Source: an uncultured Opitutia bacterium
GTDB lineage: Bacteria > Verrucomicrobiota > Verrucomicrobiia > Opitutales > Opitutaceae
Reading direction: 5' to 3'
Assembly (NCBI GenBank): GCA_903820035.1
Contig: CAIJFT010000012.1
Location: 1-34,036, forward strand
DNA: 34,036 bases
A program made the position numbers and the translations under genes. The notes under the pieces are model-generated. The model did not search any database. It was not told where the DNA came from and saw nothing but the letters and a program-made list of their open reading frames with translations. Every line of letters begins with the position of its first letter. Within the stretch, counting starts at the first letter, position 1. Below are positions 18,135-33,643 of this stretch, in pieces.

Positions 18135-19640
18135 TTATTTCAGGAAGACCTTGTAAGCCCAAATCGATGTGCCCAAAAGCAGCAGGCCAAGCATAGGCAG
18201 GGCTATTTTCATCACCGCCTCATGGCTGAGTGCCTCCCCAGATACACCCTGCTGAGGGTTGGCGCTGCGGGCTCGAATGCGACCCCTCTTCAAAAAGCCA
18301 TCATAATGACGCTGAAGGAGGAAGGTCTCGATTTGACGCATCGTGTCGAGAATTACACCGACCGTAATCAGCATACCCGTGCCGCCAAAGAAATAAGCAA
18401 TGCGCGTCGGAACCTTGAGTTCGAACAGAAGCACATCCGGCATAATCGCGATCAGGGTCAGGAACACCGCACCCGCAAGGGTTAGACGGGTCATGATGAA
18501 ATCGAGGAACTGAGCTGTCGGCTCGCCCGGACGGACGCCAGGAATGTAACCACCGTACTTCTTCAGGTCGTCGGCGATCTGGATGGGCTTGAACATCACC
18601 GACACCCAAAAATAACTAAAGAACAGGATCAGGATCGTATTCAGGAAGTAATACCAGAAGTTCCCACGAAGGAGCTCGTTTGAGAACTCGGTGAGGAATT
18701 TCAAATGGAAGTGAGCACCAACCCAGGAAAAAATTTGCTGAGGGAACAGGAGGATAGCACTGGCAAAGATCACGGGCATAACGCCCGAGTAATTGACCTT
18801 GAGTGGCAGGAAGGAACTCTGCCCACCCATGACCTTATTACCCACAACACGCTTAGCGTACTGCACTGGGATCTTACGCTGCCCCTGAACAACCGCAATA
18901 ATTCCCATCGTAACCAGTAGAAATAGAGCTATCATAATGGCCGCCTGCGGCAAGCCGAGGCTAGCACCGGTCCCGACCGGCTTGAAGAAAAGTTGGTAGG
19001 TTTGAGTGGCTGCTCCCGGAATGTCGGCCAGAATTCCCACCGTAATTAACAAGGAAACACCGTTGCCGATACCACGCTGGGTGATCTGCTCACCAAGCCA
19101 CATCAAAAGCATTGTGCCGGCGGTCATGAAGATCACCGAAGTCAAGATAAAGCTCCACTTGTCGACGATTACGATTGGACCGTAGGTCTCAACGCTATAG
19201 CCAGTAAAGAGTTGCGCTGGATTCTGGAGGGCGAGCAAAAGAAGCGTTCCTTGGATCACACAAATCAGCACAGTCGCATACCGAGTATACTGGGTGAGCT
19301 TTTGCCGTCCGACATCACCTTCTTGTTGCAAACGGCTCAACGCCGGCACCACAGCGGTCATTAATTGAAAAATGATCGATGCGCTGATGTATGGCATAAT
19401 GCCCAGCGCCGCAACCGCCCCTTTAATCAGGGCGCCGCCAGTAAACATATTATATAGGCCAATAAGAGCGCCTGCGCCGCCGGCCGACTGCTCGGCAAAA
19501 AAGTTTTGCAACGGACGGGGATCAATTCCCGGCAGGGGAATGTGAGAAGCAACACGCGAAAGAAAAAGCAGCGATAGCGTGTAAAAGATACGGGAGCGCA
19601 ACTCCGGAATCTTCAGGGAATTCGTGAAAGCAGAAAACAC
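18135..19640 (-). CDS. secY: Preprotein translocase subunit SecY
   Basis: The 501-residue channel subunit of the Sec translocon spans the inner membrane ten times. Visible signs are the N-terminal amphipathic segment IPELRSRIFYTLSLL, the plug-region loop after TM1, IPLPGIDP near residue 36, the YFWVSVMFKPIQIADDLKKYGG cytoplasmic loop and the GVRPGEPT motif. Length is somewhat above the usual 430-450 because of longer loops near residue 40-60 and in the C-terminal third. It starts at GTG. A 96-base spacer with a strong hairpin separates it from rplO. It is followed by the adk-like gene. Confidence 0.98.
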   Translation of the reverse strand: MFSAFTNSLKIPELRSRIFYTLSLLFLSRVASHIPLPGIDPRPLQNFFAEQSAGGAGALIGLYNMFTGGALIKGAVAALGIMPYISASIIFQLMTAVVPALSRLQQEGDVGRQKLTQYTRYATVLICVIQGTLLLLALQNPAQLFTGYSVETYGPIVIVDKWSFILTSVIFMTAGTMLLMWLGEQITQRGIGNGVSLLITVGILADIPGAATQTYQLFFKPVGTGASLGLPQAAIMIALFLLVTMGIIAVVQGQRKIPVQYAKRVVGNKVMGGQSSFLPLKVNYSGVMPVIFASAILLFPQQIFSWVGAHFHLKFLTEFSNELLRGNFWYYFLNTILILFFSYFWVSVMFKPIQIADDLKKYGGYIPGVRPGEPTAQFLDFIMTRLTLAGAVFLTLIAIMPDVLLFELKVPTRIAYFFGGTGMLITVGVILDTMRQIETFLLQRHYDGFLKRGRIRARSANPQQGVSGEALSHEAVMKIALPMLGLLLLGTSIWAYKVFLK

Positions 19641-20183: not shown

Positions 20184-20272
20184 ATCGGATTCCTAGATGA
20201 AGCTCGCCGCGGGCCGAGAGAGACGGTTCGCGACTCGGATTTAAATTATGATAAAGGAGAGGCTAAAATCGC

Positions 20273-25138: not shown

Positions 25139-25771
25139 TCAGTTGTTATCGGATTCTTTTTTGCAGATCCAGCACTTGACGCCGATCTTGCCGTAGACGG
25201 TCAGCGCCTCAGCGAAACCGTAGTCGATATTCTCACGCATGGTGTGCAACGGGACGCGGCCCTTACGCTGCCACTCGCGACGGGCAATATCTGCACCGCC
25301 AAGACGACCGGAGCATTGAATTCGAATGCCCTCTGCGCCAATTGCCATGGCCATTTCGACGGCCTTCTTCATCGCACGACGGAAGGCTATGCGGCGTTCC
25401 AGCTGGAGGGCAACGTTCTCAGCGACGAGGGCGGCCTCAATCTCCGGCTTTTTCACCTCCTGAATATCGAGGAGAATTTCCTTACCCGTAAGCTTGGACA
25501 GCTCCTCCTTGATTTTTTCAATTTCCTGTCCCTTGCGCCCAATTACGATGCCTGGACGTGCGGTGTAAATCTTTACACGGACACGATTAGAAGCGCGTTC
25601 AATGAAGATACGCGGGACGGAGGCCTGCTTTAACTTCTCCATCAACTTTGACCGTATGATCTGGTCTTCGAGGAGTAGTTTGCTGAAATCCTTCTTGCCC
25701 GCGTACCAGCGGGACTGCCAGTTGCGGCGGACGGCGAGACGGAAGCCGATCGGGTTAGTTTTTTGGCCCAT
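25139..25771 (-). CDS. rpsC: 30S ribosomal protein S3
   Basis: The 210-residue protein lines the mRNA entry tunnel and has helicase activity with S4 and S5. The N-terminal KH domain is visible with the GxxG loop in [13 protein letters not shown], and the C-terminal domain has [25 protein letters not shown]. The start [14 protein letters not shown] is diagnostic. It follows rplV by nine bases. Confidence 0.98.
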
Positions 25772-25780
25772 GGAAGTAAA

Positions 25781-26125
25781 TTACGAGTTGGAATTGCCGT
25801 CCGAGAGAACGATACGAATATGGGACATCTTTTTACGCCTAGGCATCGCTGTACCGCGAGCACCTGCCTTGAAGCGTTTTAGCACGGGTCCATTCTCGAT
25901 AATTGCACTCTTTACGGTCAGCGTATCAGCAGAAAGGTTATTGTTGTTCTCCGCATTCGCGATGGCGCTCTTGAGTGTCTTGGCAATGAGCTTTGCTGAC
26001 TTGCGCGGGACCAGCATGAGGTACTCTACGGCATCCGCGGCCTTACGGCCTTGGATCGTGCGGGCGACTTCGCGCACTTTCTTGGGTGACATCCGCGCGT
26101 AGCGGGTGAGGGCTTGAACTTCCAT
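25781..26125 (-). CDS. rplV: 50S ribosomal protein L22
   Basis: The 114-residue protein lines the nascent-peptide tunnel. Conserved parts are RYARMSPKKVREVARTIQG, SAIANAENN and the hairpin-loop region GARGTAMPRRKKMSHIRIVLSD. An unusual small gene and an 83-base spacer with two hairpins separate it from rpsS, its normal immediate neighbour. Confidence 0.98.
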   Translation of the reverse strand: MEVQALTRYARMSPKKVREVARTIQGRKAADAVEYLMLVPRKSAKLIAKTLKSAIANAENNNNLSADTLTVKSAIIENGPVLKRFKAGARGTAMPRRKKMSHIRIVLSDGNSNS

Positions 26126-26141
26126 GATGGTGGTGAGGATT

Positions 26142-26184
26142 CCGAAATTGATTTCGGCGATAGTAACGTGACGAAAATCACGTT
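26142..26184. promoter_or_regulatory. Tandem hairpins between the secreted-protein gene and rplV
   Basis: CCGAAAT/ATTTCGG (26142-26148 with 26151-26157) and AACGTGA/TCACGTT (26165-26171 with 26178-26184) are two perfect 7-bp stems in an 83-base spacer. No T-run follows on the minus strand. They may be mRNA processing or regulatory structures around the inserted gene. Confidence 0.45.
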
Positions 26185-26208
26185 CTACCCTTTAGTTATT
26201 TTTCTGAG

Positions 26209-26538
26209 TTAAGATTTGAGAACTTTGATGGTCGCGGCGTCGCCTCGATGGATAGACTCGCTAGCACCAACTTTGAGAATCAGCGCGGCGCCGCAAGAGG
26301 GACGTAGTTCCACGAGCAGCACTTCGGCAATTTCGGAGCCATCGCGGGAAAGGCGACAAACCATTCCCTGTCGCAGCCCAGCGTTGTAGCCCTGATTGAT
26401 CAGAACGATATCTGCCGAATGGATGGACTGTACCCCGAGGACTTCGGCAACTACCGGCGACTTTGCCGCTGAAGTTGGGGTAAACCCGACCAGAGCGGTA
26501 AGCGCAAGAACACTGCCAAATGTAAAACGACGCAGCAT
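26209..26538 (-). CDS. Small predicted secreted protein inside the S10 operon
   Basis: The 109-residue protein has an N-terminal signal peptide (MLRR, hydrophobic core 5-20, likely cleavage after TSA at residue 24). Its mature part is a short beta-rich domain: DIVLINQGYNAGLRQGMVCRL, then GSEIAEVLLVEL, then a late IHRGDAATIKVL. The pattern of a hydrophobic strand, a Gly-Leu-x-x-Gly-Met turn and a final GD resembles small beta-barrel domains like the C-terminal domain of flagellar FlgT and related envelope proteins; this is only a resemblance. Two Cys (61 and 82) could form a disulfide outside the cytoplasm. It lies between rpsS (20 bases upstream) and rplV, on the same strand, so it should be co-transcribed with ribosomal genes. 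No Shine-Dalgarno is seen. Function unknown. Confidence 0.75.
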   Translation of the reverse strand: MLRRFTFGSVLALTALVGFTPTSAAKSPVVAEVLGVQSIHSADIVLINQGYNAGLRQGMVCRLSRDGSEIAEVLLVELRPSCGAALILKVGASESIHRGDAATIKVLKS

Positions 26539-26558
26539 AGAGGTCGGATCTGGAAACT

Positions 26559-26834
26559 TTAAATTTCCTTCCGAGTCATGCCACCGTGCGCCTTAAAGAT
26601 GCGTGTCGGTGAGAATTCACCGAGCTTGTGGCCAACCATGTTTTCGGTGACGTACACGGCGATAAACGCCTTGCCGTTATGGACGCTGAACGTATGGCCG
26701 ATGAAATCGGGCGTAATCGTTGAACGACGGGACCAAGTTTGGATCGGCTTCTTAGCGCCGGCCTTCGCAGCCTTCTCGATTTTTTCGAGCAGGTGGTAGT
26801 CGACGAAAAAACCTTTTTTGATGGAACGTGCCAT
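26559..26834 (-). CDS. rpsS: 30S ribosomal protein S19
   Basis: The 91-residue head protein shows [36 protein letters not shown] and the end [11 protein letters not shown]. It contacts S13 and the A-site region. It directly follows rplB, as usual, but is separated from rplV by a foreign small gene. Confidence 0.98.
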
Positions 26835-26852
26835 GGTACGAAAGGTGCGGGG

Positions 26853-27719
26853 TTACTTCTGACCGCGCGGCTTGCGGCCGTTGTGGTGTACAATGATCTG
26901 TGAGTTCGAGGTCTTCGAACGACGGCGGGTCGGGAAGCCTTTGGCAAGTTGTCCCCATGGGGAAACAAGCTGCTGACGACCGCCACCACCCTTTGACTTA
27001 CCCTGACCACCACCGTTGGGATGGTCTACCGGGTTCATCGCCATACCGCGCACAGTCGGCCTCACGCCGAGCCAGCGCTTGCGGCCAGCCTTACCGAGGG
27101 ACTGTTGATTATGGTCTCCATTGCCAACTTCGCCTATGGTGGCTCGGCATTTTGCGTTGACGTAACGCAGCTCGCCAGAGGGCATTTTGAGCGTCGCGCG
27201 ATTGTCCTCAATCGCTACCAACTCAAGACCGGCTCCGGCTGAACGCGCTACTTGAGCGCCGCGTCCAGGAAGGAGTTCAACACAGTGGAGAAGTGTTGAA
27301 GGTGGGATAATCGACAGCGGAAAGTTATTTCCGATATTGAAATCGTTCGTGGTGGCCTTGTCGGACGCGAATACGGTATCGCCAACCTTCAGCCCCTTAG
27401 GCGCAAGGATATAGGCTTTGTCACCATTCGTGTAGGCGATCAGGGCAAGATTCGCAGTACGATTAGGATCGTATTCTAGCGCCTGAACCCGGGCCGGCAT
27501 GTCGCGAACATCGCGACGAAAATCAACGATACGATACAGCTGCTTATGACCACCACCACGATGACGGGACGTTACGCGACCGTAGACGTTACGACCACCA
27601 GACTTGTGCTTGCTCTCGGTGAGAGCGCGCTGGGGTCGCTCCTTGGATAGCCCGACCTGCTTATTGAGCGAGGTGAAGCGGCCTGAGGGCGTAAGCGGAC
27701 GAAATGAATGAATTGGCAT
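26853..27719 (-). CDS. rplB: 50S ribosomal protein L2
   Basis: The 288-residue protein is essential for the peptidyl-transferase centre and intersubunit bridge formation. Conserved motifs are SGGRNVYGRVTSRHRGGGHKQLYR, LLPGRGAQVARSAGA, and the catalytic-region loop RGMAMNPVDHPNGGGQGKSKGG with its key His in VDHPNGGG. CGGAG lies eight bases before the ATG. It lies between rplW and rpsS. Confidence 0.98.
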   Translation of the reverse strand: MPIHSFRPLTPSGRFTSLNKQVGLSKERPQRALTESKHKSGGRNVYGRVTSRHRGGGHKQLYRIVDFRRDVRDMPARVQALEYDPNRTANLALIAYTNGDKAYILAPKGLKVGDTVFASDKATTNDFNIGNNFPLSIIPPSTLLHCVELLPGRGAQVARSAGAGLELVAIEDNRATLKMPSGELRYVNAKCRATIGEVGNGDHNQQSLGKAGRKRWLGVRPTVRGMAMNPVDHPNGGGQGKSKGGGGRQQLVSPWGQLAKGFPTRRRSKTSNSQIIVHHNGRKPRGQK

Positions 27720-33553: not shown

Positions 33554-33643
33554 GGAGAGGTGGCAGAGTGGTCGAATGCGCGCGCTTGGAAAGCGCGTGT
33601 AGGTGAAAGCCTACCGGGGGTTCGAATCCCTCCCTCTCCGCCA
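33554..33643 (+). tRNA. tRNA-Ser (anticodon GGA)
   Basis: The 90-base sequence folds as a class II tRNA: acceptor stem GGAGAGG (33554-33560) with CCTCTCC (33633-33639), D arm, anticodon loop TTGGAAA with anticodon GGA at 33588-33590, a long variable arm (GTAGG/CCTAC stem) typical of Ser, T arm with GGTTCGAATCC, discriminator G and encoded CCA at 33641-33643. It reads UCC and UCU codons. Confidence 0.97.

Follow-up and report, generated by a model that had tools for sequence, protein, structure and literature searches.

An exported-looking barrel-protein gene between rpsS and rplV in an Opitutaceae ribosomal operon and its linkage to rplV

The rpsS-rplV junction is normally closed in bacteria. 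Why, then, should a gene for a small exported-looking protein lie inside it? The question is raised by the window, which here denotes the whole stretch of 34,036 nucleotides that was analysed, contig 12 of a 6.05 Mb genome. A sequence-only reading of this DNA had described a 109-residue open reading frame, denoted X below, between rpsS and rplV and in the same direction. The frame was found exactly at 26209-26538, and all three genes are on the minus strand. The features of the locus are as follows.

26209..26538, minus strand: X, gene of a 109-residue exported-looking barrel protein, stop codon included (from the open reading frame list, conservation and position)
26559..26834, minus strand: rpsS (S19), upstream neighbour of X, a conserved flank
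25781..26125, minus strand: rplV (L22), downstream neighbour, a conserved flank and the partner with which X stays
25139..25771, minus strand: rpsC (S3), the operon gene after rplV
26467..26538, minus strand: putative Sec signal peptide of X, about residues 1-24, limit judged by eye (model confidence is low here)
26212..26451, minus strand: predicted six-stranded beta barrel of X, about residues 30-109 (AlphaFold, pLDDT blocks of 94-97 over residues 31-100)
26137..26195, minus strand: conserved structured RNA before rplV (model R1), with hairpin 1 at about 26159-26189 and hairpin 2 at about 26142-26157

The X protein has the sequence MLRRFTFGSVLALTALVGFTPTSAAKSPVVAEVLGVQSIHSADIVLINQGYNAGLRQGMVCRLSRDGSEIAEVLLVELRPSCGAALILKVGASESIHRGDAATIKVLKS. 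Its ATG start lies 20 nt after the rpsS stop, and in the window the gene ends 83 nt ahead of rplV. A site scan of 25600-27000 returned neither a promoter-like site nor, on the minus strand, one resembling a terminator. The possibility of intrinsic terminators in the X-rplV gap was considered and set aside; the two terminator sites that were found are both on the plus strand, compared to 1.8 expected.

The earlier reading had named the absence of any ortholog or coding signature in relatives as what would overturn it. Both were found, and the claim stands. X matches at E <= 5.2e-9 in 48 of 200 genomes of the window's family. Among 273 genomes of the order searched by profile, 123 reached E <= 0.001; at least two of these (G071 and G093) owe their match solely to a longer paralogue at another site. 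X lies between rpsS and rplV in all of the first 30 loci fetched. Of 126 ortholog loci, which correspond to 93 distinct X sequences since named and unnamed records overlap, 125 place it after the rpsS stop and ahead of rplV; the remaining locus (L045) begins inside X, at a contig end. Many of the named ortholog records (47 loci) are Opitutaceae or Opitutus, and others are Opitutae or Verrucomicrobia. In the ortholog loci X starts 1-39 nt past the rpsS stop, and the gap from X to rplV is 3-130 nt overall. Identity to the window's protein in the first 30 loci is roughly 43-59% for X compared to 71-96% for rplV, rpsC and rpsS, a range that sets aside one 28-residue rplV fragment. Among the 60 closest pairs listed, some of which are one genome taken twice, X has a dN/dS of 0.08-0.55; the median over all 2198 pairs, many of them with high dS, is 0.40. 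Residues invariant in 29 aligned rows include D43, G50, L55, R56, G58, M59, R65, D100 and K105. Because relatives match, the position at the junction is kept and dN/dS is 0.08-0.55, a chance open reading frame is ruled out. X is a real conserved gene under purifying selection. A viral origin was also considered; none of 36 pattern stretches in IMG/VR encodes a relative of X, with patterns that catch close relatives only.

The N-terminus had been read as a clear signal peptide. By simple criteria it looks exported in X and in its relatives. A hydrophobic core near the N-terminus was found by heuristic in all 56 representatives of the short form, that is, of X as it occurs in the window's order; K or R precedes the core in 53 and a small-x-small site follows it in 55. 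These criteria are not specific, and 33 of the same 56 have an equally hydrophobic window further along. A lipoprotein was rejected, as a lipobox-like pattern occurs in one of the 56 representatives. The two cysteines that had been pointed out are present in the window's X (Cys61 and Cys82), but the pair is not conserved: Cys61 is kept in 26 of 29 rows, Cys82 in 15 and both in 15, which rules out a conserved disulfide.

The compact beta-rich domain proposed from the sequence is borne out by the AlphaFold prediction, a six-stranded barrel with mean pLDDT 83.6 and values of 94-97 over residues 31-100. That reading had not recognised the family, and the databases agree: Pfam gave nothing above cut-off for X and NCBIfam only weak MreC matches, so the short form has no entry above cut-off in either and is probably annotated as hypothetical. 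A likeness to FlgT-C-type barrels had been called suggestive. Using the X model in Foldseek, the first match is a flagellar LPHT-ring chain of 352 residues that we take to be FlgT (E 9.4e-4), followed by alanine racemase in second place and then MreC, with FlgT itself fourth (E 6.8e-3). The structural Z-scores of the model (VIA) are 11.2 and 10.8 for FlgT chains vs 10.7 for the N-terminal barrels of F1-ATPase, which amounts to a tie. The N-terminal barrel of the F1/V-ATPase alpha and beta subunits is part of large ATPases, and what it shares with X is fold resemblance only. The likeness thus holds insofar as a FlgT-type chain ranks first with the short model and, as shown below, with the long one. 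The models suggest that the fold class of X is clear and its family is not; the barrel fold is common, and the likeness to FlgT is not specific. In profile comparison FlgT_C (PF16538) gave no match to the short form at E <= 1 in the 29 and 33 members scanned, it is above cut-off in none of 19 relatives' genomes, and the window's own X is unmatched.

Outside the order, the barrel profile mostly finds longer open frames of about 150-400 residues. Their layout is a signal or membrane start, a coiled coil and the X barrel; many lie directly before rplV, and others are paralogues elsewhere. The model of a long form (234 aa) has helices and a six-strand barrel, again one barrel only, and HHalign relates the short and long forms with a probability of 99.3%. 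On this sequence comparison the two are taken to be one family. In Foldseek the long-form model places FlgT chains first and second, with MreC chains among its matches. FlgT_C matches five of 17 long forms at E <= 0.01 (best 6.2e-5), and the best PDB sequence match of the long-form profile is TsaP, labelled 'LysM domain protein | TsaP' (E 0.0016). The FlgT_C and TsaP matches both lead towards the collar proteins found in envelope machines. A defence system was also considered and discarded: PADLOC gave weak matches for the long form, and in the member shown they fall within the coiled coil.

These matches bear on what X might be. It could be an accessory of a ring complex, i.e. a collar protein like the C-terminal part of FlgT or TsaP serving a secretin or pilus-type machine, and the first rank of a FlgT-type chain, the five FlgT_C matches and TsaP as best PDB match speak for it. 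PMC3872333 describes FlgT as a ring protein of greater size that serves the flagellum. Its C-terminal domain, from the H ring of the Vibrio flagellum, is a small barrel like X, ranking first and fourth with the short model and first and second with the long one, whereas X is a lone barrel or a coiled coil with a barrel, is found in a ribosomal operon, and in its short form lacks a family match. In TsaP, a secretin-associated protein of type IV pili, it is residues 313-356 that match the barrel region of the long form, marginally. TsaP carries a LysM domain and X does not; the LysM family is absent among the Pfam matches listed for either form. Moreover, the matches are weak, and unrelated coiled-coil families reach comparable E-values with the long forms (MscS_porin, 2.5e-5). 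We consider a ring accessory unlikely.

The other candidate suggested by these searches is a factor like MreC, in which the coiled coil and barrel would act with the cell-wall elongation machinery and link wall growth to ribosome supply. MreC (PF04085) and the long form share the order of an export or membrane start, a coiled coil and a barrel, MreC chains appear in Foldseek, and NCBIfam gives MreC matches, although weak ones (E 0.052 for the short and 9.1e-4 for the long form, with scores of 11-19 bits where the cut-offs are 92.75 to 505). MreC has two beta domains behind its coiled coil, whereas the X models, short and long, have a single barrel. HHalign against MreC gave the short form a probability of 0.2%, which does not improve on shuffled columns, and the long form one of 12%, neither of them significant, and a separate true MreC is above cut-off in 18 of the 19 genomes searched, the window's own included. 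The separate MreC and the HHalign values rule out X being MreC itself, and a role like that of MreC seems rather unlikely to us.

The sequence-only reading had treated X as a local insertion at rpsS-rplV. This part did not survive: the linkage is to rplV, widespread and probably old. Among 60 genomes from 57 families besides the window's, X directly precedes rplV in 39 (23 of 30 in a phylum set and 16 of 30 in a class set); many of the 60 genomes were picked for a profile match, so the proportion should not be read as an unbiased one. The profile of this rplV-anchored survey was partly built from the same genomes; position did not enter into it. Of the 39 genomes, 27 have rpsS upstream of X as usual, and 12 have no rpsS within 1500 nt (L258, L263, L265, L266, L267, L270, L271, L274, L276, L277, L279 and L280), so that X leads rplV-rpsC. 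Eight of these 12 loci were read and have no ribosomal gene ahead of X; in L279 the X frame fills the stretch. Searching the 12 whole genomes located rpsS in 11, on another contig in eight and on the same contig in three, at a distance of about 37 kb (G749), 567 kb (G752) and 662 kb (G675). The ribosomal cluster is split in those genomes, and X stayed with rplV. As X remains with rplV where rpsS has moved, the link that is kept is that of X and rplV.

Copies away from the junction were noted as well. At L127, L129, L130 and L248 there is a paralogue that combines a membrane start, a coiled coil and the X barrel; at L248 it is beside pgi (tblastn), and the neighbours at the other three are presumably pgi and rsmI. 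In a family search of a paralogue the lowest E-value is that of TPR_MLP1_2 (5.1e-5), which falls in the coiled coil, and FlgT_C is not among the matches listed. A tandem pair of coiled-coil and barrel frames (294 and 298 aa) is found at L238, in a class-level genome that has the junction form too (L195).

X is also missing from many junctions. No X-like open reading frame is at the junction in 29 Opitutaceae genomes selected for the absence of a strong X match (a 30th, G015, gave no rpsS match); their rpsS-rplV gap is 13-218 nt, and four of them are in the window's genus. Several Opitutaceae lack X, so some lineages can dispense with it. In the window's class, 12 families that form one clade likewise have a junction without X, at an rpsS-rplV distance of 5-30 nt. 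Since the barrel profile matches at other sites in 10 of the 12 genomes of that clade, X does have relatives there. A wider profile gave no match anywhere in five X-less genomes (G002, G003, G004, G006 and G049). On a quick tree of rplV and rpsC (101 rows, 66 with and 35 without X; 319 columns), X is spread over deep branches and requires at least 15 changes vs 29.3 in shuffles, with the starred branches forcing at least six. Old presence of X and many losses is the simplest reading, and a tree this short would accommodate other histories. This patchy presence, together with the faster evolution of X than of its neighbours, is what one would expect of a neutral passenger, an old insertion that persists since an essential operon is costly to rearrange. 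However, the dN/dS values indicate purifying selection, X-less junctions recur, which means that removal is possible and yet many lineages keep X, and X stays with rplV where rpsS moved. We regard a neutral passenger as highly improbable.

What we infer for X concerns its export, co-transcription, oligomerisation, partner and function. The gene layout hints that expression of an envelope protein is tied to ribosome production, as had been proposed. In the reading that we prefer, and in which we place about even confidence, X is an exported, growth-scaled envelope scaffold or assembly factor whose dose tracks ribosomal-protein expression. X would be made from the ribosomal message, directly ahead of rplV, so its amount should track ribosomal-protein output and hence growth rate. 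After Sec export the mature part would be one FlgT-C-type six-stranded barrel. The export signal suggests that X acts in the envelope, and the barrel and coiled coil suggest a scaffold: the barrel may dock onto a complex of the envelope, and where there is a coiled coil it may make X oligomeric. X appears to have an N-terminal coiled coil in other families, and in the window's order to be a barrel with little else.

The position of X can also be read in terms of regulation. SecM, a secreted protein, senses secretion capacity through its own translation and export for secA, and translation and Sec export of X could do likewise and tune the translation of rplV-rpsC. In favour of this, rplV follows X immediately, X comes first in the cluster in genomes whose rpsS has moved, and only 3-46 nt separate X from rplV in the order's loci outside the window's family. 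Such an export monitor would be expected to keep an arrest motif, but the C-termini differ among families (...VKTLKA, ...IKTLQNS, ...VKTIN) and share none; the whole barrel is conserved, as in a working protein, and the distance to rplV varies across the full 3 to 130 nt. We think this quite unlikely, and retain the growth-scaled envelope factor as the preferred reading.

The two hairpins that had been noted downstream of X are confirmed by folding, and they belong to a separate RNA. The X-rplV gap of the window has a minimum free energy of -20.3 kcal/mol (z -3.8). Its motif, AAAGGGYAG-stem-CTRTCGCC-loop-GGAATC, is found by a loose pattern in 64 of 65 distinct gaps of the window's family, among them 15 of 16 X-less gaps of 60 nt or more, which rules out an RNA dependent on X. 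In helix 1, seven of 10 pairs have double changes, one pair being U-A in 24 rows and C-G in 20, and its scores were reached by none of 500 shuffles, a figure that kinship of the sequences can also give. Hairpin 2 (P2) is a weak candidate for a covarying helix; its first variable pair forms in 30 of 47 sequences, where shuffles average 22.3 and reach at most 31. Searched across 132 genomes of the order with filters that lose weak matches, the covariance model R1 gave a single copy in each of eight genomes; all eight belong to the window's family, and each copy is just after X or rpsS. A second weak match in the window (19582-19612, plus strand, E 0.031) is taken as chance. Rfam left the element unmatched, with only a tRNA at gathering score in the window, and over 19 loci it returned two chance-level matches at E <= 5, neither above the gathering score. 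Judged from sequence, the RNA is a candidate new rplV leader, independent of X. At one locus (L027) a long C run is found between both conserved ends of the element, before rplV.

Taking protein and RNA together, one may tentatively suppose that exported X is a phylum-ancestral partner of rplV which ties envelope growth to the output of ribosomes, whether through matched dosage or through export feedback on L22/S3 synthesis, and that in Opitutaceae the new rplV leader RNA is a second control layer outlasting the loss of X; we find this broader picture possible, though doubtful.

In X, a fold that is already known is found in a genomic partnership that is unexpected and has long been kept. The nearest parallel in layout is secY, an envelope protein gene inside the ribosomal spc operon; like X it places an envelope protein within a ribosomal-protein operon, and unlike X, SecY is universal and of known function. 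By length and spread, not by sequence, X may also be compared to the PVC signature protein CT421.2, given as about 53 to over 80 residues in PMC3444138, which is likewise small, of a role not known, and common to related phyla. In the literature searched by title or abstract, subscription papers and supplements lying outside that search, neither the X insert nor the RNA element is described. An exported-looking protein kept by rplV gives a handle on the coordination of envelope growth and ribosome synthesis, and besides X the RNA element before rplV is also open to testing. For Verrucomicrobium spinosum, a saturated transposon data set and targeted mutagenesis exist, according to PMC12283558.

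Two further observations were made in the window. The spacing of rplO and rpsE, between which rpmD (L30) usually sits, is only 89 nt (20184-20272) and thus too small for rpmD. The tRNA gene found by Rfam is at 33554-33640 on the plus strand, past the ribosomal cluster and opposite to it in strand.
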